A stretch of 64,000 bases of DNA, taken from positions 1 through 64,000 of the forward strand of contig NZ_FRCQ01000024.1 of NCBI RefSeq assembly GCF_900142965.1. Reading direction: 5' to 3'. Positions 26,495-41,249 of this stretch are shown here, piece by piece (position 1 is the first letter of the stretch; each line of letters opens with the position of its first letter). Under the pieces are notes generated by a model, which was not told the DNA's origin, made no database searches, and worked only from the letters and a program-made list of their open reading frames with translations. This DNA is from Rhizobacter sp. OV335 (lineage in GTDB: Bacteria > Pseudomonadota > Gammaproteobacteria > Burkholderiales > Burkholderiaceae_C). Both the position numbers and the translations under genes were made by a program.

Positions 26495-28792
26495 TCAGAT
26501 CTCGGAACCCCCGAACGACACCCGCAACCCGATCCACCCGGCCCGCGGCGCTCCCGGCGCGACGAACTGCTCGTGCTTCCAGTCAGCGGGCGGCTGCACC
26601 GCGCCGTTCGCATCGAACGCGTTCGTGCCGAGCAGGCCGCCGGTCGAATACTTCCGATCGAACACGTTCGACACCTTGGCGAACAGCTCCCAGCCCGGCC
26701 GGAAGGTCCAGCCCGTGGTCAGGTCGAGCAACGCAAACCCGGCGGTGCTGCCGCTGCCGAAGAAGTCGACGCCATCGGCCTGGTGGGCATTGTTCTCGTT
26801 GCCCCGCACATACTGCTTCGATTGCGCGCGCAGTTGCGCCCCGATGCGCCAGCTCGGCGTGGCCTGCAGGTCCAGGCTGAGCTTCAGCGTGTGGCTCGGC
26901 AGGCCGGGCAGGCGGTTGCCCTTGCGCACCTCGATCTCGTCATCGCCGGTGCAGGCGGCGCTGGTCTCGGCGCTGCTGTTGGCTTCGGAGACCAGGCAGG
27001 CCGACGAGTCGAAGGTGGCCCGCAACCAGCTGTACGACAGTGCCCAGTTCAGAGCGCCAACCTGCTGCGAGAGGCCAAGCTCCACGCCCTGTCGCACGGT
27101 GCGCCCGACGTTGCTGAAATAGCCGGCCGACAGCCCGTTGCTGATGAACAGCAGGTCATCCCGATTGATGGTCCGGAAGACCGACGCATTCCAGCGCAGG
27201 CCCTGCCCCAGCTTGCCGCGCACGCCGGCCTCGAGCGTCTGCGACACCACCTGCTTCAACGGCGGGTCCGACTGCAATGCATTCGGCAGCACGCAGGCGT
27301 TGGCCGGGTCCGAGCAGCCGAGCTCGATCGGGCTCGGCGCACGGTTGCCCTGGCTCCAGCTGCCGTAGGCGGTGAAGCTGGGTGTCACCTGCCAGGTGGC
27401 GCCGATCGCCGGGTTGAACTTGCGGTAGCGGTCTTCGGCATCGAGCTTGGTCGGCAGGCCCAGCTCGGCCCGGCCGTCGTCGACCGTGCTGACGCGGGTG
27501 TCGTTGTAGCGGCCCGAGACGGTCAGCTGCAGGTTGGATCGCAGCGCGAACAGGTCGCTGAAGTAGACGCTGGTGGTGCGACTGCGGCCGGAGATCTTCG
27601 CGTTGATCTCGGCGTCTTCGGTCGGGATCACCGCGCGGCTCGCGTCCAGGTCGCCCTCGGCCTCGCTCTGCTCGAAGTGCGTGCGCGAGCGGTCCTGCGA
27701 CAGCCCAACCGTCAGGCGGTGCGGCTGGGCATTCCAGGTCGCCTGCACCGCCAGGCCTTCGCTGTCGGTGCTCGTGCGGGTGCGGTTCTCGACGCCGGCC
27801 TCCGCGACGGCCGGCGGGTCGTAGTCGTCGTTCAGGTCGCCGTTCAGCGTCGACGCGCGGTTGCGCCGCGCATACGCCGTGGCCGCCATCTCCCATTGCG
27901 GGGTCAGCTTGGCCGTGGTGTTGAAGGTGAGTAGCGTCGCCTCGTTGTCGGTGAGGTCCGGCCGCGTGTAGATCTGCTCGCGGCGCTGCGCCAGCATCGA
28001 TTCGGGCAGGCCGCCATTGCCGATCAGCTGGTTGTCGGCATGGCCCAGGCTCAGGTCCCACGAGAAGCTGCTGCTGCGCTGCCCGCCCTTGACGAACAGC
28101 TGCCGCACGCGCGACGGCGACTCGTCGCGCCAGCCGTCTTCGTTCAGCGCGCCGAAGGCCATGAAGAGGTGGCCGGTCTCGCCGAGCTTGCGGCCGTGCG
28201 TCAGCTCGGTGCTGATGCGGCCGAACGAGCCGCCCTCGACCTCGATCTCGGTGCCGGGGTGCGTGTCGCCGCTCTTGGTCTGCAGCGACAGCGCGCCGCC
28301 CAGCGTGTTCAGCCCGAACAGCGGGTTCGAGCCGGGCAGCAGCGTGATGTTGGCGAGTGCGGCACGCGGCAGCAGGTCCCAGTTGACGACGTCGCCGAAG
28401 GGCTCGTTGACGCGCACCCCGTCGAGGAACACCGACAGGCCCTGCGGCGTGCCGAGCAGCGGGCTGGCGGTGAAGCCGCGGTAGTTGACGTCCATCTGGT
28501 ACGGGTTGCCCTGCACCTCGTTGACATTGACGCTGGGCAGCTGCGTGCGCATGAACTCCGGCAGGTTCAGGCTCTGCAACTGGCGCAGCCGCCGGTCGGT
28601 GGCGGTCTGCACGTTGGACGGGATCTGGTCCTTGGGCACGCCGGTGCCGGGGACCGGGGTGGTCAGCACGATCTCGACCTCAGGCAGCACGACCGGTGCC
28701 GGCGCCTCGGCCGCCGGGACCGATTGGGCGTGGACGGCGGGCGCGAATGCGGCCAACGCCAACAACGAGGCGTTCGCGAGCGGGTGATGCAT
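26495..28792 (-). CDS. TonB-dependent receptor beside lanthanide/PQQ genes (LutH-like candidate)
   Basis: 765 residues from ATG 28792, which has GGAG 8 bases upstream. A signal peptide ends at VHAQS, the plug has LNLPEFMRTQLPSVNVNEVQGNPYQ, VNYRGFTASPLLGTPQGLSVFLDGV-type segments and LFGLNTLGGALSLQTKSG. The barrel ends RVSFGGSEI. Its position next to the Lut/Ped-type ABC operon and xoxF suggests uptake of a lanthanide chelate, as for LutH in Methylorubrum, but sequence alone does not prove the substrate. It is separated from the response regulator by 345 bases containing a REP pair, so likely has its own promoter. Confidence 0.87.
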   Translation of the reverse strand: MHHPLANASLLALAAFAPAVHAQSVPAAEAPAPVVLPEVEIVLTTPVPGTGVPKDQIPSNVQTATDRRLRQLQSLNLPEFMRTQLPSVNVNEVQGNPYQMDVNYRGFTASPLLGTPQGLSVFLDGVRVNEPFGDVVNWDLLPRAALANITLLPGSNPLFGLNTLGGALSLQTKSGDTHPGTEIEVEGGSFGRISTELTHGRKLGETGHLFMAFGALNEDGWRDESPSRVRQLFVKGGQRSSSFSWDLSLGHADNQLIGNGGLPESMLAQRREQIYTRPDLTDNEATLLTFNTTAKLTPQWEMAATAYARRNRASTLNGDLNDDYDPPAVAEAGVENRTRTSTDSEGLAVQATWNAQPHRLTVGLSQDRSRTHFEQSEAEGDLDASRAVIPTEDAEINAKISGRSRTTSVYFSDLFALRSNLQLTVSGRYNDTRVSTVDDGRAELGLPTKLDAEDRYRKFNPAIGATWQVTPSFTAYGSWSQGNRAPSPIELGCSDPANACVLPNALQSDPPLKQVVSQTLEAGVRGKLGQGLRWNASVFRTINRDDLLFISNGLSAGYFSNVGRTVRQGVELGLSQQVGALNWALSYSWLRATFDSSACLVSEANSSAETSAACTGDDEIEVRKGNRLPGLPSHTLKLSLDLQATPSWRIGAQLRAQSKQYVRGNENNAHQADGVDFFGSGSTAGFALLDLTTGWTFRPGWELFAKVSNVFDRKYSTGGLLGTNAFDANGAVQPPADWKHEQFVAPGAPRAGWIGLRVSFGGSEI

Positions 28793-28948
28793 GTCAAGTC
28801 TCCGGTGGTTTTTCCTTGTCTCGGAGTTGCGGGAGTCGTCTGGGTGGTGGTGGTGCCACGCTAACAAGCGGGCTGTGCAGGGCACAGGGAAATTTTCCCG
28901 GCGGCGCTGCTCGTTAACACCAGGGGGCCGGCAGTTGCAAGGAAGCTC

Positions 28949-29046
28949 CGTTCGCCCTGAGCTTGTCGAAGGCCACGCGCGCGTCGGGCGCAACCCTTCG
29001 ACGGACGGGCCCTCGACAAGCTCGGTCCCTGCTCAGGGCGAACGGG
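28949..29046. repeat. REP-type inverted repeat pair
   Basis: CGTTCGCCCTGAGCTTGTCG (from 28949) and its inverted partner (to 29046, CTCAGGGCGAACGGG) flank a GC-rich core with further partial copies. It occupies the 345-base gap between the response regulator and the TonB receptor. The same sequence family recurs at 34733, 46421, 46613, 51965 and 60207. The rest of this gap (28793-28948, 29047-29137) shows only a GGGAAATTTTCCC palindrome near 28888. Confidence 0.85.
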
Positions 29047-29137
29047 AGTGTTGTTTCTCGGGGGTATCGAATGAAGCCGCCAAGCCGTCGCCCGATTCCG
29101 TCTTCGCGAGCAGATGCGCGAAGACCGCAGGCTCGCC

Positions 29138-29779
29138 TCAAGCCCCAGCCGTGCTGATCACCTGATGCCGGATCGCCAGGTGCACCAGCGCCGCCGAGGT
29201 GGCCACGCCGAGCTTGTCCTTGATCGCCGTCTGCAGGTTGGCAACCGTCTTCGGGCTGAGCTTCAGCGCCTCGGCACAGGCGCCGGCCGAGTGGCCTTGC
29301 GCGAGCAGCCGGAACACTTCGAACTCGCGCGCGCTCAGCTCGGCGAGCCGGTCGGCTTCGTCGTGCGGGTCGCGTTCGAGCAGCGTGGGCGACAGCTCGC
29401 GCCCCAGATAGCGGCGTCCGGCGTGCAGCTCGCGCACCGCATCGACCAGGCACTCGGGCGGGCTCGCCTTGGTCAGGAACCCTCGCGCGCCGGCCTGTAA
29501 CGCGCGCCGCACCAGCACCGGCGCGTCGTGCATGCTGAACACCAGCAGCCGCGCCTGCGCGTCGCGCAGCAGCACGCGGCGCAGCAGCTCCAGGCCGCCG
29601 CCCGCGGGCATCGCGAGGTCGGTGACCAGCACGTCGGGCCGGTGCGCGATGAAGGCCGCATACGCCGCGTCGGCATCGCCGGCTTCGGCGATCACCTCGA
29701 TGTCGCCCGCCTGGTCGAGCAGGCGCAGGTAGCCGCTGCGCACCACCGGGTGGTCGTCGGCCAGCAGCACGCGGATCAC
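29138..29779 (-). CDS. LuxR/NarL-type response regulator
   Basis: 213 residues from GTG 29779, giving IRVLLADDHPVVRSGYLRLL at the N terminus. Receiver domain has acidic pair DD (6-7), phosphoacceptor Asp in VLVTDLAMPAGGG (near 55) and Lys in GFLTKASPP (near 104). The C-terminal LuxR helix-turn-helix is LSAREFEVFRLLAQGHSAGA and LSPKTVANLQTAIKDKLG. The start overlaps the kinase stop by 4 bases. Likely DNA-binding output for the xox/lut-type region; related in type to regulators of PQQ alcohol dehydrogenases. Confidence 0.93.
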   Translation of the reverse strand: MIRVLLADDHPVVRSGYLRLLDQAGDIEVIAEAGDADAAYAAFIAHRPDVLVTDLAMPAGGGLELLRRVLLRDAQARLLVFSMHDAPVLVRRALQAGARGFLTKASPPECLVDAVRELHAGRRYLGRELSPTLLERDPHDEADRLAELSAREFEVFRLLAQGHSAGACAEALKLSPKTVANLQTAIKDKLGVATSAALVHLAIRHQVISTAGA

Positions 29780-30750
29780 GCGAGCTCCCGGTGCGGCAGC
29801 GCGGCGTCGGCTGCGGCCGTCGCGGGCATCGGCACGCGCAGCACCAGCTGCACGCCGGCGCCGGGCGACGCGCGCACGTCCAGCTCGCCGCCGAGTGCCG
29901 CGGCCCGCTCGGTCGCACCCAGCAGGCCGAGGCCACGCGTCGCCGCGGCCAGGTCCATGCCGCGACCGTCGTCCTCGACGCTCAGCTGCAGCTCGCCCTG
30001 CGCGCTGCGGCCCAGCTTCACATGCACCGCGCTGGCCTGCGCATGGCGCATCACGTTGGTCAGCGCCTCCTGCGTCACGCGGTACAGCGCGATGTCGATC
30101 GCGTCGCCGAAGCCCTGCGCAAAGGCCTCGTGGTGAAAGATGCAGGGCACGCCGCTGCGCTCCTCCCACGACTCGCACAGCTCCTGCAGCGCCGCCTCCA
30201 GCCCCAGCTCGTCGAGGTTGGCCGGCCGCAGCCGGCGCAGCATGCCGCGCACCGCCTGGTACAGCTGCTGCGCCGCGCGATCAGCGCGCTCCACGGCGGC
30301 CAGCGTGGCGCTGCGATCGGCCGCGCCGCACAGGCGAACGAAGGCTGTCTCGGCACGCACCGCGGCGCAGCCCTGGCCCAGCTCGTCGTGCAGCTCGCGC
30401 GCCAGGGCCAGTCGCTCGCTCTCCTGCAGCGCGATCAGCTGGCGCGCCAGCTCGCGGTTGTGCGTCAGCAGCTCGCGCGCCTGCGCCTCGGCCTGCTCGC
30501 GCAGCGCGAGCTGCGCGCGGGCGTCCTGCGCGCGCCGCAACGCGTACCAGGCCAGGCCGCCGGCCAGCACCGTCAGGCTGAACGGCAACTCATCGGCCTG
30601 CCAGTGCTCGTGCGGCAGGGCCCAGCGCTGCACGAGTTCGCTCAGTTCGAAGAACGACGCCAGGCCGTAGCTCGCCAGCGTCGCGAGCACGACGATGGCG
30701 ATGTCGCCCAGCAAGCGGAGGCGCCGCGCGCGCCGTTCAGCTGCCGCCAC
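29776..30750 (-). CDS. Membrane sensor histidine kinase (HisKA_3/NarX type)
   Basis: 324 residues from GTG 30750. Two membrane helices (GDIAIVVLATLASYGLASFF near 15-34 and LTVLAGGLAWYAL near 57-70) leave a short periplasmic loop, then a coiled coil (AQLALREQAEAQARELL). The H-box is ARELHDELGQG with the phosphorylated His, and the ATPase has ALTNVMRHAQA, DDGRGMD and GLGLLGATER. Overlaps the BUG receptor gene by 14 bases and the regulator by 4. The tiny sensor loop suggests it reads a partner protein or the membrane. Confidence 0.92.
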   Translation of the reverse strand: MAAAERRARRLRLLGDIAIVVLATLASYGLASFFELSELVQRWALPHEHWQADELPFSLTVLAGGLAWYALRRAQDARAQLALREQAEAQARELLTHNRELARQLIALQESERLALARELHDELGQGCAAVRAETAFVRLCGAADRSATLAAVERADRAAQQLYQAVRGMLRRLRPANLDELGLEAALQELCESWEERSGVPCIFHHEAFAQGFGDAIDIALYRVTQEALTNVMRHAQASAVHVKLGRSAQGELQLSVEDDGRGMDLAAATRGLGLLGATERAAALGGELDVRASPGAGVQLVLRVPMPATAAADAALPHRELA

Positions 30751-31705
30751 GAGACAGGCCCATGCGTTCGACGATGAGCCCCTCCTTGATGAACTGCTGG
30801 CGACAGACCTCGGCGTAGTCGGCCGTGCCGAGGTAGTCGATCTCCTGGTCATACTTGGCCAGCTCCTGCGCGAACAGCGGGTCGAACATCGCGGCCTTGA
30901 ACGCGTCGTGCAGCACCTTGACCACGTCGGCGGGCAGCCCACGCGGCCCACCCAGGCCGTAAGGCGACATCGCAACGATGTCGAAGCCCAACTCGCGCAA
31001 GGTCGGCACCTGCGGCCAGCGCTTCGACCGCTGCGCGGCAAAGGTGGCCAGCAATCGCAGCCGGCCCGAATCGACGAAGGGCCCGAAGCCGGTGGAGTTG
31101 ACGCCGACCATCACCTGCCCCGAGTCGACCGCGATCATCTGCTCCGAGGTGCCCTTGTACGGCACGTGGATGTACTTCAGGCCGCGCGCGGTGAACAGCT
31201 CTTCGAGCACCACGTGCGGCGTGGTGCCGACACCATTGGTCGCGATCGTCAGGCGGCCGGGGTTCTTGCGCGCGTACGCGAACAGGTCGTCGAGCTTGCG
31301 CAGCTTGCTGCTCGCGCTGACCAGCACGCCGAAGGTCACGCCGGAGACCTGGATGATCGGCGTCACGTCGCGGATCGGATCCCACAGCACCTTCTGCGTG
31401 TGCACCGCGCGGAAGATCGGCTGTGGCAGCTGCGCGATCGTGTAGCCGTCGGGCTCGGCCTGCTGCAGCACCGGCATCGCCAGCGTGCCGCCGGCACCGC
31501 CGCGGTTCTCGGTGACGACCGGCTGGCCGAGGTGGTGCGACGCCAGCTCGGCCAGCAGGCGCAATGAGATGTCGGTCGCGCCACCGGCCGGCCACGGGAT
31601 CCACATCACGATGGCGCGCGACGGGTACGGCGTCTGCGCGCGCGCCAGCGGCCAGGCGCCGAGCGCCGCGGCAGCGCCGACAAATCCGCGGCGGGTGACG
31701 GTCAT
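30737..31705 (-). CDS. BUG/TctC-type periplasmic solute receptor, Tat-exported
   Basis: 322 residues. Twin-arginine signal TRRGFVGAAAALGAWPLARAQ-type (Arg5-Arg6). The mature BUG fold is shown by YPSRAIVMWIPWPAGGATDI, ENRGGAGG, VPYKGTSEQMIAV and QVPTLRELG. BUG proteins bind small carboxylates or similar and normally serve TctAB transporters; none is present here. It sits between an ABC permease (4-base overlap) and a histidine kinase (14-base overlap), so a sensing role for a methanol- or metal-related ligand is possible (inference). Confidence 0.9.
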   Translation of the reverse strand: MTVTRRGFVGAAAALGAWPLARAQTPYPSRAIVMWIPWPAGGATDISLRLLAELASHHLGQPVVTENRGGAGGTLAMPVLQQAEPDGYTIAQLPQPIFRAVHTQKVLWDPIRDVTPIIQVSGVTFGVLVSASSKLRKLDDLFAYARKNPGRLTIATNGVGTTPHVVLEELFTARGLKYIHVPYKGTSEQMIAVDSGQVMVGVNSTGFGPFVDSGRLRLLATFAAQRSKRWPQVPTLRELGFDIVAMSPYGLGGPRGLPADVVKVLHDAFKAAMFDPLFAQELAKYDQEIDYLGTADYAEVCRQQFIKEGLIVERMGLSRGGS

Positions 31706-32595
31706 GCCGGGCCGCCTCCACGCTTCGCCAGGCCACCGAAACCACGCTGCGGGTCGTAGCCCCAACACGCCACGACGAAGAACACCACCAGGCAACCCAG
31801 CACCACCCACGGCGCGATCCCCGGGTCCTTGCCATACAACGCAAAGCGGATCCACTCCACCGCATGCGTGAACGGGTTGAAGCGCGCCGCCTGGTACACC
31901 CACTCGGCGCCCGACTCCTGCAGCTTCCACAGCGGGTAGAGCGCGGTCGACAGGAAGTACATCGGGAAGATCACGAAATTCATCGTGCCGGCGAAGTTCT
32001 CCAGCTGCTTGATGTGTACCGACAGCAGCAGCCCCAGCGCCCCCAGCATCAGCGCGCCGCACACCAGCGCGAGCAGCGCGTGCAGCCCCGCCCACGAGAA
32101 CAGCGGCAGCTCGGTGCCCAGCAGCATCGCCACCACCACGAAGGCCAGCGCCTGCAGCACCGAGAGCAGCGCGGTCGCGCACAGCTTGCTGAACAGCAGC
32201 CACGAACGCGGCAGCGGCGCCGTCAGCAACAGCCGCATCAGCCCCATCTCGCGGTCGTAGACCATCGCCAGCGACGACTGCATGCCGTTGAACAGCAGCA
32301 CCATGCCGACCAGGCCCGGCGCGATGTAGACGTCGTAGGGGATGTAGGTGTCGTAGGGCTCGACGATGGCGACGCCGAACACGTTGCGAAAGCCCGCCGC
32401 GAACACCGCCAGCCACAGCAGCGGGCGCACCAGCGCCGAGACCAGCCGCCCGGTCTGCTGCGAGAACTTGAACAGCTCGCGCATCACGATGGCCTGCAGC
32501 GCCTGCAGCGCATGCGTGATGCCGTGCCGCCCTTCGGCCTCGACGGCCGCAGCCGCGGCGGGCGGGGTCACGGGTTTCACCGCGTCGCTTTGCAT
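31702..32595 (-). CDS. ABC-2 type permease of PQQ/lanthanide-associated transporter
   Basis: 297 residues, six predicted helices, ABC-2 export-type fold (EIAP-like region VYDREMGLMRLLLTAPLPRSWLLFSK near 120-145). It resembles the PedC/LutF-type permease found with PQQ alcohol dehydrogenases. The start is supported by GGAG 7 bases upstream. A REP-free, His/Ala-rich N-terminal tail of about 25 residues precedes the first helix. Overlaps the binding-protein gene by 19 bases and the BUG gene by 4. Confidence 0.9.
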   Translation of the reverse strand: MQSDAVKPVTPPAAAAAVEAEGRHGITHALQALQAIVMRELFKFSQQTGRLVSALVRPLLWLAVFAAGFRNVFGVAIVEPYDTYIPYDVYIAPGLVGMVLLFNGMQSSLAMVYDREMGLMRLLLTAPLPRSWLLFSKLCATALLSVLQALAFVVVAMLLGTELPLFSWAGLHALLALVCGALMLGALGLLLSVHIKQLENFAGTMNFVIFPMYFLSTALYPLWKLQESGAEWVYQAARFNPFTHAVEWIRFALYGKDPGIAPWVVLGCLVVFFVVACWGYDPQRGFGGLAKRGGGPA

Positions 32596-33767
32596 AGTTT
32601 CTCCGGGGCATCGGCGCCCAAGGTGTCGAGGACATCGGTGGGATGCAGCAAGCCCTCGATCGGCGCCTGCGCGATCACGCCCTGCCCGTCGGTCAGCAGC
32701 ATCGATTGCCGCAGCTGCCCGTCCCACGGACGGAAGCTCAGGCTGCCGCCTTTCGAGCCGTCGACCGGCGTCGCGGCCAGCGCCTTCGCCCACGCGGCGT
32801 TCGGCCCCTTCGGCTCGGCCGCGGCGATCGCGATCAAGGCCTTGCCACCCATCCACGCCGCCCAGTCGTGGTCGGTCATCGGGCGCTTCGCGGCCTTGGC
32901 GAACCGGCGTGACACCTGCGGCGCGCCATAGCGCTCGAACTGCGCATGCCAGGCCAGCGCCACCAGCCCGGCATCGCCGACCACCGGCCGCGGCAGCACG
33001 GTGCGGTAGGGCAGGCTGCGCGCGAACTCGCCGTCGCTGTCGACCACCCACACCGCGTCGTACGCAGCGCCGGAGGTCAGCAGCAGCGGGTTCGCGAGAT
33101 CGCGCTCGCGCGGGTCGGCCGACAGCTTGTAGGGCTTGCTGGCGACCAGCTGCAGGCCGTAGCGCTTGATCGAAGCCTGCGCGGTGGCCGCGCGAACGGC
33201 GTCCTGCGGGCCACTGCCGACCAGCAGCAGCAGCTTGCTCCACTTGCGCGACACCAGCGTCTGCGCGAGCGCGTCGGCGCGCATGCGCTCGCTCGGGATC
33301 AGGTGGAACAGGCGGGCGCGGCAGTCCTGCTGGCGCAGCCGGTCGGCGCTGTCGCCGAGGTTCAGCACCGGCAGCTTCACCGCATCGGCCGCCGCCAGCG
33401 TGGCGTCGCTGCCGAGGTCGGTGAGCACGACGGCAGCGCCGGCCTTCTCGGCCGCCTGCGCGGCAGCGCGTGCGGCCTCCGCCGTGGCAGCGGTCACGAC
33501 GCTCAGGGCCACCGCCGCACCGGCGGCTTCGAGTTCGAACCTGCCTTCATCGAGCGCCACCTGCAGGCCGTCGGTCGCCGGACCGCCGGTGTGGCCGAGG
33601 TAGCCGCGCTCCAGCCGCGTGCGTTCCAGGCGCGCATCGCCGGCCGGCACGATCAGCGTGGCCTTCAGCGTGGCCGCGGCGGCCGAGGTGGCGGTCGCAG
33701 CGAAGGCAGCGCAGCACATCAGCATCACCGTCCCACTCACCCGGCGGCCTGCGGCACCGTGCGTCAT
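32577..33767 (-). CDS. ABC transporter substrate-binding protein, PQQ-alcohol-dehydrogenase type
   Basis: 396 residues. Signal peptide ([20 protein letters not shown] then Ala-rich, cut near ATSAAAA), then a branched-chain amino-acid receptor-like fold: GGPATDGLQVALDEG, LTDLGSDATLAAADA, VLNLGDSADRLRQQDC, LLLLVGSGPQD. This matches the receptor family tied to PQQ-dependent alcohol dehydrogenase clusters (LutA/PedB-like). Start overlaps the beta-propeller stop by 4 bases. Ligand not shown by sequence; lanthanide-related uptake is inferred from context. Confidence 0.88.
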   Translation of the reverse strand: MTHGAAGRRVSGTVMLMCCAAFAATATSAAAATLKATLIVPAGDARLERTRLERGYLGHTGGPATDGLQVALDEGRFELEAAGAAVALSVVTAATAEAARAAAQAAEKAGAAVVLTDLGSDATLAAADAVKLPVLNLGDSADRLRQQDCRARLFHLIPSERMRADALAQTLVSRKWSKLLLLVGSGPQDAVRAATAQASIKRYGLQLVASKPYKLSADPRERDLANPLLLTSGAAYDAVWVVDSDGEFARSLPYRTVLPRPVVGDAGLVALAWHAQFERYGAPQVSRRFAKAAKRPMTDHDWAAWMGGKALIAIAAAEPKGPNAAWAKALAATPVDGSKGGSLSFRPWDGQLRQSMLLTDGQGVIAQAPIEGLLHPTDVLDTLGADAPEKLCKATR

Positions 33768-34843
33768 TCGAGGATCGCCACGCCGTAGGGCACGCGGCCG
33801 ACCGGGATGCTCTTGATCGCCTTGGCACCCGCCACGTCGACCACCGTCACGTCGTCGCTCAACCCGTTGACGACGAACAGCCGCGCCTCGGCCTTGTCGA
33901 GCGCGACGTTCCAGGCCCGCTTGCCCACCAGCACCAGGTTCGTGGTCTTGCGGCTGGCCACGTCGATGAAGGCCACGTGGTTGGCCTTGCCGAGCGCGAC
34001 GAAGGCCCGCTTGCCGTCGCGCGACATCTGGATGCCGACCGGCGTGATGTCGGTCGCGCGCGCGCCCTTCACTTCGAGCTTGATGGTGTCGGTGACGGCA
34101 TGGGTGGCCGTCGCGATGATGCTGATGCTGGCGCCGAGCTCGTTGGTCACCCACAGCTCCTTGCCGTCGGGCGTCAGCGCCATGCGGCGCGGCCGCTTGC
34201 CGACCTTCACATTGCTGGTGATCTTCGCGGTGGCCACATCGATCACGTGGATCAGGCTCGCGACCTCGGAGGTGATGTACAGCGTCTTGCCGTCGGCGCT
34301 GACCTTCACGCCCTCGGGCTCCTGCCCGACCTTGATCGACTGCAGCGTCTTGCCGCTCGCGGCGTCGATGAAGCTGGCCTCGGCGGCATCCTCGTTCGAC
34401 ACGTAGATGGTCTTGCCGTCGGGCGACAGGTCGAAGGCCTCCGGCTCGTCGCCGAGCGGCACGCGGCGCAGCGACTTGCCGGTGGCCGGGTCGATCACGT
34501 CGGCCGCGTTCGCATCGGTGCAGGCCACCATGATCTTGCGGTCGGGCGTGACCTGGATGTGCCGACCGCGCTTGCAGGTGGGCACGGTGCCCTTCACCGT
34601 CAGCGTCGCGAGGTCGATCATCGTCAACGCATCGTCCTTCTCGCTCGACACGTAGGCGGTGCCCTGCGCCGATGCGGCGGTGCAGCAGGCGGCGAGCGCC
34701 CATGCAGCGCCCAGTCGTCGGCAAAGAAATCCCGTTCGCCCTGAGCTTGTCGAAGGGTGGGACTGAGCTTGTCCTTCGACAAGCTCAGGATGATCGGGCC
34801 CTTCGACAGGCTCAGGGTGAACGGCGGGGGCGAGTGAGTTCAT
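33764..34843 (-). CDS. PQQ-associated YVTN beta-propeller protein with REP-derived N terminus
   Basis: 359 residues if started at ATG 34843, one base overlapping the ATPase stop. Residues ~9-37 (PEPVEG, PELVEG, STSSGRT motifs) are a translated REP element inserted before the real signal core ([19 protein letters not shown]). The mature part has about seven propeller blades with repeats such as [13 protein letters not shown]-type units. It belongs to the PQQ-catabolism-associated beta-propeller family (LutD-like context). No in-frame ATG, GTG or TTG was seen between the REP and the signal core, so the long start seems to be used. Confidence 0.87.
34733..34825. repeat. REP element inside the 5' end of the beta-propeller gene
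   Basis: CGTTCGCCCTGAGCTTGTCG (34733) with inverted partners CTTCGACAAGCTCAGG and CTTCGACAGGCTCAGGGTGA ending at 34825. It is translated as part of the propeller gene's N terminus, 18 bases from the start codon. Confidence 0.88.
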
Positions 34844-35583
34844 CAGGCAGTGCGGGCGATGAACCCCGCCTCCAGCGTCGATTCGCCGAGCGCCTGCGTG
34901 ACCTCGGCCGGCGAGCCGTCGGCCAGCAGCGCGCCCTGGTGCAGCACCAGCACGCGGTCGGCGGCCATCGCCTCCTCGACCCAGTGGGTGGCCCACAGCA
35001 CGCACACGCCGCGCTCGCGCACGTCGCTGCGCAGGGCAGCCAGCAGGTCTTGGCGCGATTTCGGATCCAGCCCGACGGTGGCCTCGTCCATCAGCATCAC
35101 CGCCGGGTGGTGCAGGCCGGCGCGCACCAGCTCGACCTTGCGGCGGTTGCCGCCCGACAGCTCGCGCACCTTGCGGTCGAGCTCGCCGCCCAGGCCCAGC
35201 CGCTCGCAGCCGGCGGCTATGCGCGCGCGCGCCAGGCGGCGCGGCAGGCCGTGCAGGTCGGCCTGGAACAGCAGGTTGCGGCGGATGCTCAGGTCGAGGT
35301 CGAGCGAGACCTGCTGGAACACCACGCCGATCTGGCGCAGCGCCGATGCGGCCGCGCGCCGCAGCGAATGCCCCGCCACCTCGACCTCGCCCTCGTCGGC
35401 GGCGAACAGCCCGGTCAGCAACTGGAACAAGGTGGACTTGCCGGCGCCGTTGGGGCCGAGCAGCGCGACGAACTGGCCCGCGGCCACCTGCAGCGACAGC
35501 GACCGCAGCGCCGCGCGCTCGCCATAGCGCTTGGTCAGTCCGGTGGTCCGCAGCATCGTCGAAGGGGGCATGGCGAAGCTCAT
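34843..35583 (-). CDS. ABC transporter ATP-binding protein (PQQ/lanthanide cluster)
   Basis: 246 residues from ATG 35583; ATGs at 35571 and 35556 are possible as none has a clear ribosome site. Walker [11 protein letters not shown]-loop VVFQQ, signature [14 protein letters not shown], Walker B VMLMDEAT and H-loop ATHW are complete. The domain is of the export/ABC-2 class, matching the permease two genes down. First gene of the seven-gene overlapping operon, divergent from xoxF. LutE/PedA-like by context. Confidence 0.92.
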
Positions 35584-35949: not shown

Positions 35950-37770
35950 ATGCGAAATTCCGGTCTGTCGACATGGCGTATCTGGCGCCATCTGGGCATG
36001 GTGTTGCTTGCTCTGCCGCCATTGGCGATGGCGAATGCGGATGTCGAGAAGAACATCGCCAACTCCAAGAACTGGGCGATGCAGGCTGGCGACATGTACA
36101 ACCAGCGCTACACCAAGCTCAACCAGATCAACACCGGCAACGTCGGTAAATTGCAGGTCGCGTGGACCTTCTCGACCGGCGTGCTGCGCGGCCACGAGGG
36201 CTCGCCGCTGGTGATCGACGGCACGATGTACCTGCACTCGCCGTTCCCGAACAAGGTGTTCGCGATCGACCTCGACAGCCAGAAGATCCTCTGGAAGTAC
36301 GAGCCCAAGCAGGACCCGGCCGTGATTCCGCAGATGTGCTGCGACACGGTGAACCGCGGCCTGGCCTATGCCGAAGGCAAGATCATCCTGCAGCAGGCCG
36401 ACAGCATGCTGCTCGCGCTCGACTCGAAGACCGGCAAGGTCATCTGGAGCGTGAAGAACGGCGACCCGAAGCTGGGCGCGGTGAACACCAACGCGCCGCA
36501 CATCTTCAAGGACAAGGTCATCACCGGCATCAGCGGTGGCGAGTGGGGCGTGCGCGGCTTCATCGCGGCCTACAACCTGAAGGACGGCAAGCTCGCCTGG
36601 AAGGGCTACAGCGTCGGGCCCGATGCCGAGATGCTGATCGACCCCGACAAGACCATGACCTGGACCAATGGCGCGATGGCGCCGGTCGGCAAGGACTCGT
36701 CGACCAAGACCTGGAAGGGCGACCAGTGGAAGACCGGCGGCGGCACCACCTGGGGCTGGTACAGCTACGACAAGGCGCTGAACCTGATGTACTACGGCAC
36801 CGGCAACCCGTCGACCTGGAACCCGGCGCAGCGCCCGGGCGACAACAAGTGGTCGATGACCATCTTCGCGCGTGACGTCGACACCGGCATGGCCAAGTGG
36901 GTCTACCAGATGACGCCGTACGACGAGTGGGATTTCGACGGCATCAACGAGATGATCCTGGCCGACATCGACGTCAAGGGCAAGCCCACCAAGGCGCTGG
37001 TGCACTTCGACCGCAACGGCTTCGGCTACACGATGGACCGCGTGACCGGCGCGCTGCTGGTCGCCGAGAAGTACGACCCGCAGGTCAACTGGGCGACGCA
37101 CGTCGACATGAAGACCGGGCGCCCGCAGGTGGTGGCGAAGTACTCGACCGCGCAGGGCGGGCCTGACGTCAACACCAAGGGCATCTGCCCGGCGGCGCTC
37201 GGCAGCAAGGACCAGCAGCCGGCCTCGTTCGACCCGGAGACCAAGCTCTTCTACGTGCCGACCAACCACGTGTGCATGGACTACGAGCCGTTCAAGGTCG
37301 AGTACACCGCCGGCCAGCCGTACGTCGGCGCGACGCTGTCGATGTACCCGGCCCCGGGCAGCCACGGCGGCATGGGCAACTACATCACCTGGAATGCCGG
37401 CACCGGCAAGATCGTGCAAAGCCATGCCGAGAAGTTCTCGGTCTGGAGCGGCGCGCTGAACACCGCCGGCGGGCTCAGCTGCTACGGCACGCTCGAGGGC
37501 TACCTGAAGTGCGTCGACAAGAAGGACATCAACAAGGAGCTCTTCAAGTTCAAGACGCCGTCGGGGATCATCGGCAACGTGTTCAGCTATGAGCACAAGG
37601 GCAAGCAGTACATCGGCGTGTTCTCGGGCATCGGCGGCTGGGCCGGCATCGGCATGGCGGCCGGCCTCGAGAAGGACCAGGACGGCCTCGGCGCCGTCGG
37701 TGGCTACCGCGAACTGGCGCAGTACACCGAGCTCGGTGGTTCGTTGACGGTGTTTGCCCTGCCGAACTGA
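35950..37770 (+). CDS. xoxF: Lanthanide-dependent methanol dehydrogenase XoxF
   Basis: PQQ quinoprotein that oxidises methanol in the periplasm. 606 residues with a signal peptide (cut near LAMANA). Vicinal Cys130-Cys131 (QMCCDT) stack on PQQ; Glu198 (SGGEWG) and Asn286 (GTGNPS) are metal ligands. The catalytic segment PYDEWDFDG has Asp328 and the extra Asp330, the residue that marks lanthanide enzymes; calcium MxaF has Ala there. An eight-bladed propeller with Trp-docking repeats is evident. AGGAG precedes ATG 35950. Followed by xoxG and xoxJ; no mxaF or mxaI in the window. Confidence 0.97.
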
Positions 37771-40301: not shown

Positions 40302-41249
40302 GTGGCGGCGCTGCTGGCGGGCCTCGTGTCCGGCAGCGTCGCGGCGCCGTTCGCCTGGATCACCAACCAGGGCAGCAACGACGTGTCGGTGATCGACCTC
40401 GCGTCGCAGCAGGTGGTGGCCACGGTCCCCGTCGGTCGCTCGCCGGCCGGCGTGGTGGCCGCGTCGCGCGCCGGCAAGGTGTTCGTCTCCAACCCCGACA
40501 GCCGCGACATCTCGGTGATCGACATGCGCGAGCAGCGCGTCGTCGGCACGCTGGCGGCCGGCGACGGCCCGGTGGGCATCGATGCCTCGCCCGATGGCAC
40601 GCGGGTGTTCGCCGCCGACTGGTATGCCAACCGACTGATGGTGTTCGACGCGGCGGGCAGCGGGCCACCGCTGGCGCGAATCGAGGTGGGCCGTGCGCCG
40701 GCCGGCGTGGCAGCGCATGCCGACAACGACACCGTGTTCGTCGCCGAGCGCGACGATGACAGCGTGGCCGTGGTCGGCGTGCGCGAACGCCGCGTGCTGT
40801 CGCGCGTGAAGGTCGGCAGCCATCCGTTCGCGCTGCTGTTCGATGCAATGCGCCAGCGGCTGTACGCCCTCAATGTGCAGAGCGACGATGTGTCGGTGAT
40901 CGACACCCATGACAGCCGTGCCTTGCGCGTGATCGCCACCGTGAAGGTCGGCAAGGCACCGTACGGCGCCGCGCTCGCACTCGGCGGCGCGCTGCTCTAC
41001 GTGACCAACCAGCACGACGACAGCGTCAGCGTGATCGACGCCGATTCGCTGAAGCTGCTGCGCACGCTGAACGGCTTCGGCTACCCCGAGGGCGTGGCCG
41101 CGCATGGCGACAAGGTCTACGTCGTCAACTGGATGGACGACGACGTCAGCGTGCTCGATGCCGCCAGCGGGCAAGCGGTGCGCCGCATCGCCACCGGCAA
41201 GAACAGCCGCGGCTTCGGCGCCTTCATCGGCGCGCCCGCACAGCCCTGA
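40302..41249 (+). CDS. Exported YVTN beta-propeller protein (second copy type)
   Basis: 315 residues from GTG 40302, two bases after the previous stop. Short signal peptide (ALLAGLVSGSVAAPFA). About seven repeats of the form VSVIDLASQQVVATVPVG and KVFVSNPDSRDISVIDM, a complete propeller. Related to, but not a duplicate of, the propeller at 33764-34843. The operon also contains the two unknown exported proteins and MxaD-like protein. Function unknown, probably periplasmic scaffold or binding. Confidence 0.85.
   Translation: MAALLAGLVSGSVAAPFAWITNQGSNDVSVIDLASQQVVATVPVGRSPAGVVAASRAGKVFVSNPDSRDISVIDMREQRVVGTLAAGDGPVGIDASPDGTRVFAADWYANRLMVFDAAGSGPPLARIEVGRAPAGVAAHADNDTVFVAERDDDSVAVVGVRERRVLSRVKVGSHPFALLFDAMRQRLYALNVQSDDVSVIDTHDSRALRVIATVKVGKAPYGAALALGGALLYVTNQHDDSVSVIDADSLKLLRTLNGFGYPEGVAAHGDKVYVVNWMDDDVSVLDAASGQAVRRIATGKNSRGFGAFIGAPAQP

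Follow-up and report, generated by a model that had tools for sequence, protein, structure and literature searches.

A BUG-type solute-binding protein gene linked to a lanthanide-type ABC transporter in Rhizobacter and its family

Described transporter clusters and the Rhizobacter locus

The transporter family considered here is needed for lanthanide-dependent growth in Pseudomonas putida (PMC12997753, PMC6839425) and in Methylorubrum extorquens (PMC7391723), according to the accessible portions of these papers, and in the latter organism Lut mutants are described as impaired in La transport (PMC7391723). The PedA1A2BC system of P. putida KT2440 contains the same kinds of permease, ATPase, propeller and substrate-binding protein (SBP) as the locus described below (PMC12997753, PMC6839425); there too a kinase/regulator pair, PedS2/PedR2, adjoins the transporter genes, and the lanthanide-dependent PedH lies in the cluster. 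Unlike our locus, it has no BUG protein in the available table rows, and PMC12997753, in its available text, contains neither “tricarboxylate” nor “TctC” (0 occurrences each). The Lut cluster of M. extorquens AM1 resembles our locus in combining a TonB receptor with an ABC transporter and periplasmic proteins, but the accessible part of its description names no BUG protein (“tricarboxylate” 0 times) and no such kinase/regulator pair (PMC7391723). Bordetella pertussis offers a case of a BUG protein encoded next to a two-component system, BctC with BctDE; in the available text BctC is part of the BctBA (TctBA-type) transporter, and the response to citrate depends on it (PMC5812351). For many BUG proteins neither partner nor ligand is known, according to the accessible part of a review. 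In our judgement, the route by which lanthanides or their chelates traverse the periplasm is still an open question.

The window analysed is a stretch of 64,000 nucleotides from Rhizobacter sp. OV335 (contig NZ_FRCQ01000024.1, positions 1 to 64,000). The genes of the locus are:

26495..28792, minus strand: TonB-dependent receptor (siderophore model, below cut-off)
29138..29779, minus strand: NarL/LuxR-type response regulator, 213 aa (Response_reg and GerE domains)
29776..30750, minus strand: sensor histidine kinase with a GTG start (HisKA_3 and HATPase_c domains)
30737..31705, minus strand: BUG/TctC periplasmic solute-binding protein P0001, 322 aa, Tat-type signal (PF03401)
31702..32595, minus strand: ABC-2 permease of the PedC family (TIGR03861, 358.2 bits, cut-off 241.35)
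32577..33767, minus strand: ABC substrate-binding protein, the SBP (TIGR03863, 344.9 bits, below the cut-off of 413.6)
33764..34723, minus strand: beta-propeller protein, start position approximate (TIGR03866, 323.4 bits, cut-off 287.3)
34843..35571, minus strand: ABC ATPase (TIGR03864, 319.6 bits, cut-off 302.25)
35950..37770, plus strand: xoxF-like PQQ methanol/ethanol dehydrogenase (TIGR03075; Asp pair in DEWDFDG)

The minus-strand genes form a chain with an overlap at every junction, running from the propeller through the SBP, permease, BUG and kinase to the regulator. Propeller and SBP have an ATGA in common, a 19-bp overlap joins the SBP gene to that of the permease, the permease stop and BUG start again share an ATGA, the kinase gene and the end of BUG have 14 bp in common, and a GTGA is common to kinase and regulator. 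The ATPase lies upstream of the propeller across a gap of about 120 bp, and xoxF is divergent from the minus-strand transporter, BUG, kinase and regulator genes. The Lut/Ped-type profiles for permease, ATPase and propeller (TIGR03861, TIGR03864 and TIGR03866) all score over their cut-offs. The initial annotation of this DNA had described a BUG gene overlapping both permease and kinase, with a NarL-type regulator next, and a two-component system fused into the transporter operon; the exact coordinates confirm the former, and the gene layout and family profiles the latter, in an ABC transporter operon of lanthanide type that faces xoxF. Its statement that no Lut or Ped system of such composition had been described also holds among the matches listed from open-licence papers, in which no BUG protein was found in a lanthanide/PQQ transporter cluster.

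The name xoxF for the gene at 35950..37770 is our assumption, made from context, and the Asp pair in DEWDFDG we take to be the signature of lanthanide-type PQQ dehydrogenases. This putative signature is present in 40/43 PQQ dehydrogenases of the examined loci, with or without BUG, a count that takes the first regex match (the one in L125 looks off-site). A second YVTN beta-propeller gene lies downstream of xoxF at 40302-41249 on the plus strand (TIGR03866, 149.4 bits, cut-off 287.3). The TonB receptor gene follows the regulator after about 345 bp; for the P. putida cluster the accessible text reports no close homolog. Its product scores 139.7 bits with the siderophore model (cut-off 223.5) and 100.5 with PqqU (cut-off 1200). 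An interspersed repeat of the TTCGCCCTGAGCTTGTCGAAGG type, recognised by eye, has copies in the gap between regulator and TonB receptor (28940-29050) and in that between ATPase and propeller (34725-34840).

The BUG protein and its linkage to the transporter

P0001 scores 231.7 bits with PF03401, against a gathering score of 27. The family loop P-F-x-A-G-G-x-x-D is present as PWPAGGATD, with tryptophan for phenylalanine in 67/67 members of the clade described below (for residue conservation the fragment L112 was left out and L185 included). By eye the N-terminal TRRGFVG is of the twin-arginine type, and both R5 and R6 reach at least 95% conservation across these 67 proteins, consistent with the Tat-type signal that had been proposed. 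Conservation of the two columns was used for this judgement, and not the count of RRx-hydrophobic motifs (60/67), which was dropped because the segments extend upstream of the start codons. The BUG protein had also been called an orphan and, judged on TctA, it is one: the genome has 30 TctC matches vs 4 TctA, and no TctA was found on the window's contig (C43), all four being elsewhere in the genome.

The family of the window was searched with TIGR03861 (399 genomes), giving 84 places in 83 genomes; the window is the 84th locus, and flanks were taken for the other 83, some of them cut at contig ends. Three loci from a kinase-seeded search (L010-L012) bring the set to 87, L009 and L013 having been left out since they are apparently the same contigs as L067 and L058. 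A BUG gene is found near the PedC permease in 67 of the 87 loci (66/84 for the TIGR03861 search alone). Its position is immediately downstream in 28 loci, downstream beyond an insert in 24, divergent between ATPase and propeller in 13 and upstream in 2. The transporter has no BUG in 14 of the 87 (one, L116, with little upstream flank), four have no BUG but less than 3.5 kb of downstream sequence, and in two there is a BUG elsewhere that is outside the clade. With 30 BUG genes in 6.9 Mb, chance would place one no further than about 3.5 kb from any particular gene roughly 3% of the time, and the repetition of the permease-BUG pairing across the family shows it to be more than chance. Furthermore, in the 74 loci whose flanks are long enough, BUG occurs in 59/67 that have both SBP and propeller and in 0/7 lacking one or both (p = 4e-6, a value that overstates independence as the loci are related). 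Because of this relatedness, none of the Fisher values given here is a true probability.

All 68 linked BUG proteins (the 67 and L185) form a single clade with support 0.993, from which 28 paralogs of the window genome are excluded; the tree (n=98) held these, plus two outside BUG proteins, left out the short C72 fragment and drew its outgroup paralogs from one genome. The linkage was also examined in reverse, with P0001 as the query against the same 399 genomes (E 1e-90, at most five candidates scored per genome). BUG proteins at least 56% identical to P0001 are encoded within 6 kb of a permease in 52 of 56 cases; of the four others, two are in genomes with the permease at the end of a contig, one lies at a distance of 33 kb and one is in a genome without a permease match. 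Below 56% identity the linkage fades, to 12/20 among the further matches tabulated, which reach down to 47%.

Outside the family, 53 permease places were found and the flanks of 40 examined. Here the gene order is SBP-propeller-ATPase-permease, where the window has ATPase-propeller-SBP-permease, and BUG is present in only 1/40, L185, which is from the same taxonomic order as the window. Among 379 genomes drawn from across this order the permease was over cut-off in 8; five of these have a BUG match at E 1e-95 (four being in the window's family) and three have none. A BUG match of 50-52% identity was also obtained in two genomes whose permease is not over cut-off. The BUG protein is therefore not essential to the transporter, since 14 loci in the family and 39/40 outside it are without one. 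That a clade of BUG proteins goes with a lanthanide-type ABC transporter in Burkholderiaceae is new beyond the initial annotation, and it gives a tractable ligand question.

In the loci where an insert precedes BUG (class B, e.g. L072:6383-8959) a four-gene cassette sits between permease and BUG. In L072 its products are three membrane proteins, one MotA/ExbB-like (20.9 bits against a cut-off of 22.9) and two, one of them small, that have no significant family, and a lipoprotein-like protein whose DUF3108-like match falls short of the cut-off. The cassette is complete in 23/24 class-B loci, the other having three of the four genes, and is present in a few loci of other classes; it was found in 0/40 of the loci outside the family and gave no match to NCBIfam.

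The kinase and regulator and their relation to BUG

PedS2-type kinases have a periplasmic sensor domain. The kinase of the window is unlike them: between TM1, placed by hydropathy, and TM2, placed by eye and below the 19-residue cut-off, it has a loop of some 20-25 residues, in agreement with the tiny periplasmic loop first noted. The loop carries HEHWQADELP, and 13/13 aligned kinases, with or without BUG, retain the segment E-[RHD]-W-[QE]-x-D-E-[LIW]-P. The loop was also considered as a generic module of the genome and this was rejected: besides itself, the N-terminal 97 residues gave only three matches, at E 0.3-0.9, two of which (L189 and L190) have longest frames with no apparent kinship, as judged by eye.

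In the 66 permease-seeded loci with full flanks, a co-directional regulator is present in 8/8 loci with xoxF vs 2/58 without it, and in 10/53 with BUG vs 0/13 without (p 0.19; loci related). With the three kinase-seeded loci added the figures become 11/11 vs 2/58 for xoxF, and 11/54 vs 2/15 for BUG (p 0.72; loci related). A co-directional kinase is nearby in 12 loci, ten of them with BUG; seven of the 12 are permease-seeded with full flanks, and all seven have BUG, which makes a link between BUG and kinase possible in the lineage of the window. Elsewhere the genes come apart. In L011 and L012 the kinase directly follows the permease, the SBP, a TIGR03866-like propeller and BUG are absent beside it, and a search at E 1e-60 gave no BUG match in either genome (metagenome-assembled, completeness not stated). 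In L051, L052 and L060, which belong to one genus, the regulator comes straight after BUG, leaving no space for a kinase, and the TonB receptor is kept. A lower-similarity kinase/regulator on the opposite strand follows in 12/87 loci, 11 of which have BUG, and some NarL-type regulator lies up to 9 kb downstream in 27/67 BUG-bearing loci; thus regulation recurs, but not by way of one fixed BUG-kinase pair. The regulator of L051, L052 and L060 keeps its receiver residues, by eye, and may therefore answer another kinase. In L012 (11002-12500) the regulator gene is present in two tandem copies after the kinase (scores 302 and 299).

The initial annotation had taken the BUG protein to be mainly the receptor of the kinase, and had named a conserved linkage of permease, BUG, kinase and regulator as something to look for. 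The permease-BUG part of that linkage stands (67/87), while kinase and regulator track xoxF more closely than BUG (for the regulator, 8/8 with xoxF vs 2/58 without), and 43 of the 53 BUG-bearing loci with full flanks have no co-directional regulator. Moreover, among the five close relatives of the kinase, L011 and L012 lack BUG in their operons, which is the result that the annotation itself had named as counting against its proposal. Most likely it merged two neighbouring modules that are fused in the window. On these comparisons of sequence and gene order, the BUG protein is probably an accessory binding protein of the Lut/Ped-type lanthanide transporter, and the two-component system a separate module linked to xoxF; the comparison thus sets the transport part apart from the xoxF-linked regulator. 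The BUG protein would be a clade-specific periplasmic component of the Burkholderiaceae form of the Lut/PedA1A2BC-type ABC transporter, capturing in the periplasm a small aromatic carboxylate, probably planar, that would be either a metal chelate destined for the transporter or a carboxylate linked to it in some other way, and working together with the propeller and SBP. The kinase and regulator, being tied to xoxF, would most likely control the xoxF and transporter genes, with the kinase probably sensing through its short membrane-adjacent segment and not needing BUG.

A signalling chain like that of BctC, in which the BUG protein, once loaded with ligand, contacts the kinase at its short periplasmic face and the kinase then phosphorylates the regulator, which tunes the xoxF and transporter genes, would fit the overlap of the BUG and kinase genes and the presence of BUG in 10/12 loci with a co-directional kinase (7/7 of those permease-seeded with full flanks). 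A kinase with no sensor domain must also obtain its input from somewhere, and there is a precedent in BctC-BctE of Bordetella, as described in the available text (PMC5812351). However, L011 and L012 keep kinase and segment in genomes without a BUG match at E 1e-60, L051, L052 and L060 keep BUG without the kinase, and the association of BUG with the regulator is not significant (p 0.72 and 0.19), so that we regard such a chain as unlikely. The window also differs from BctC in that its contig has no TctA and in that BUG and kinase each occur alone in relatives. A dual role, with BUG serving the transporter widely and being recruited as a signal for the kinase only in the xoxF lineages, would accommodate both the wide transporter linkage and the tight overlap in the window operon, and BctC is known as a binding protein with two roles (PMC5812351, accessible part); the same five loci, two with the kinase and no BUG and three with the reverse, count against it, and we consider it likewise unlikely. 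Finally, the BUG protein could scavenge an organic acid produced by periplasmic alcohol oxidation and have no link to a metal. Carboxylates are common BUG ligands, according to the literature seen in part, and the adjoining enzymes oxidise alcohols, but the import partner TctA is absent from the window's contig and the presence of BUG tracks the SBP and propeller of the metal transporter; this explanation appears very improbable.

The BUG pocket and its candidate ligand

Fourteen residues (W38, Q92, P94, R99, W108, Q119, F125, T162, S204, F207, W230, S247, P248 and E308) are each at least 96% conserved in the clade and present in at most 29% of the paralogs; R99, W108 and F207 are invariant in the clade and count among its differences from TphC and TBP. 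In TphC, the pocket is described in the accessible text as having a stacking aromatic, a narrowing proline and a carboxylate-binding threonine, with Q150 as a fourth determinant (PMC8556258). By motif-position mapping through the TBP alignment and the TphC description, W38, P94 and T162 (94-100% in the clade, 4-11% or less in paralogs) apparently correspond to TphC F30, P86 and T155. The BUG protein thus resembles TphC and TBP in its fold and, apparently, in three of the four side chains of the planar pocket, as mapped by motif position (PMC8556258, accessible part). It differs in its sequence (26-30% identity to TphC/TBP, PDB 7ndr and 8hka), in its gene context and in having N157 at the position that, by the same mapping, is apparently that of Q150.

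The best PDB match of the profile is the terephthalate-binding TBP, at 174.5 bits vs 173.3 for the next different protein. The AlphaFold model of P0001 has a pLDDT of 90.8 and matches 2dvz (BugE) with a TM score of 0.84; the top solved structures by fold are BugE, BugD, Bug27 and TBP, with BugE and BugD nearer than TphC. These residues weakly suggest that the ligand is a planar aromatic carboxylate; the suggestion is a weak one because the fold is nearest to BugE and BugD and because asparagine replaces Q150.

Direct binding of lanthanides by the BUG protein was considered and set aside as less likely, as the only clade-specific acidic residues listed are E281, D286 and E308, which do not form a cluster. 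In the text of a chemical proteomics study of PQQ binders, the terms “solute-binding”, “substrate-binding” and “tricarboxylate” are absent. Bug27 and Bug69 bind quinolinate with K_D values of 136 nM and 70 nM respectively, as given in the accessible part of PMC11452294, which makes PQQ or an aromatic lanthanophore conceivable as the ligand here. We tentatively suggest, as possible but doubtful, a five-part Burkholderiaceae system for the uptake of lanthanide or PQQ-lanthanide, in which the BUG protein would bind an aromatic carboxylate chelate (a lanthanophore or PQQ) in a narrow pocket lined by Trp, Arg and Pro and hand it to the ABC-2-type transporter, serving this in place of TctAB. The pyridine dicarboxylate of PQQ would, by analogy, resemble the quinolinate bound by Bug27 and Bug69.
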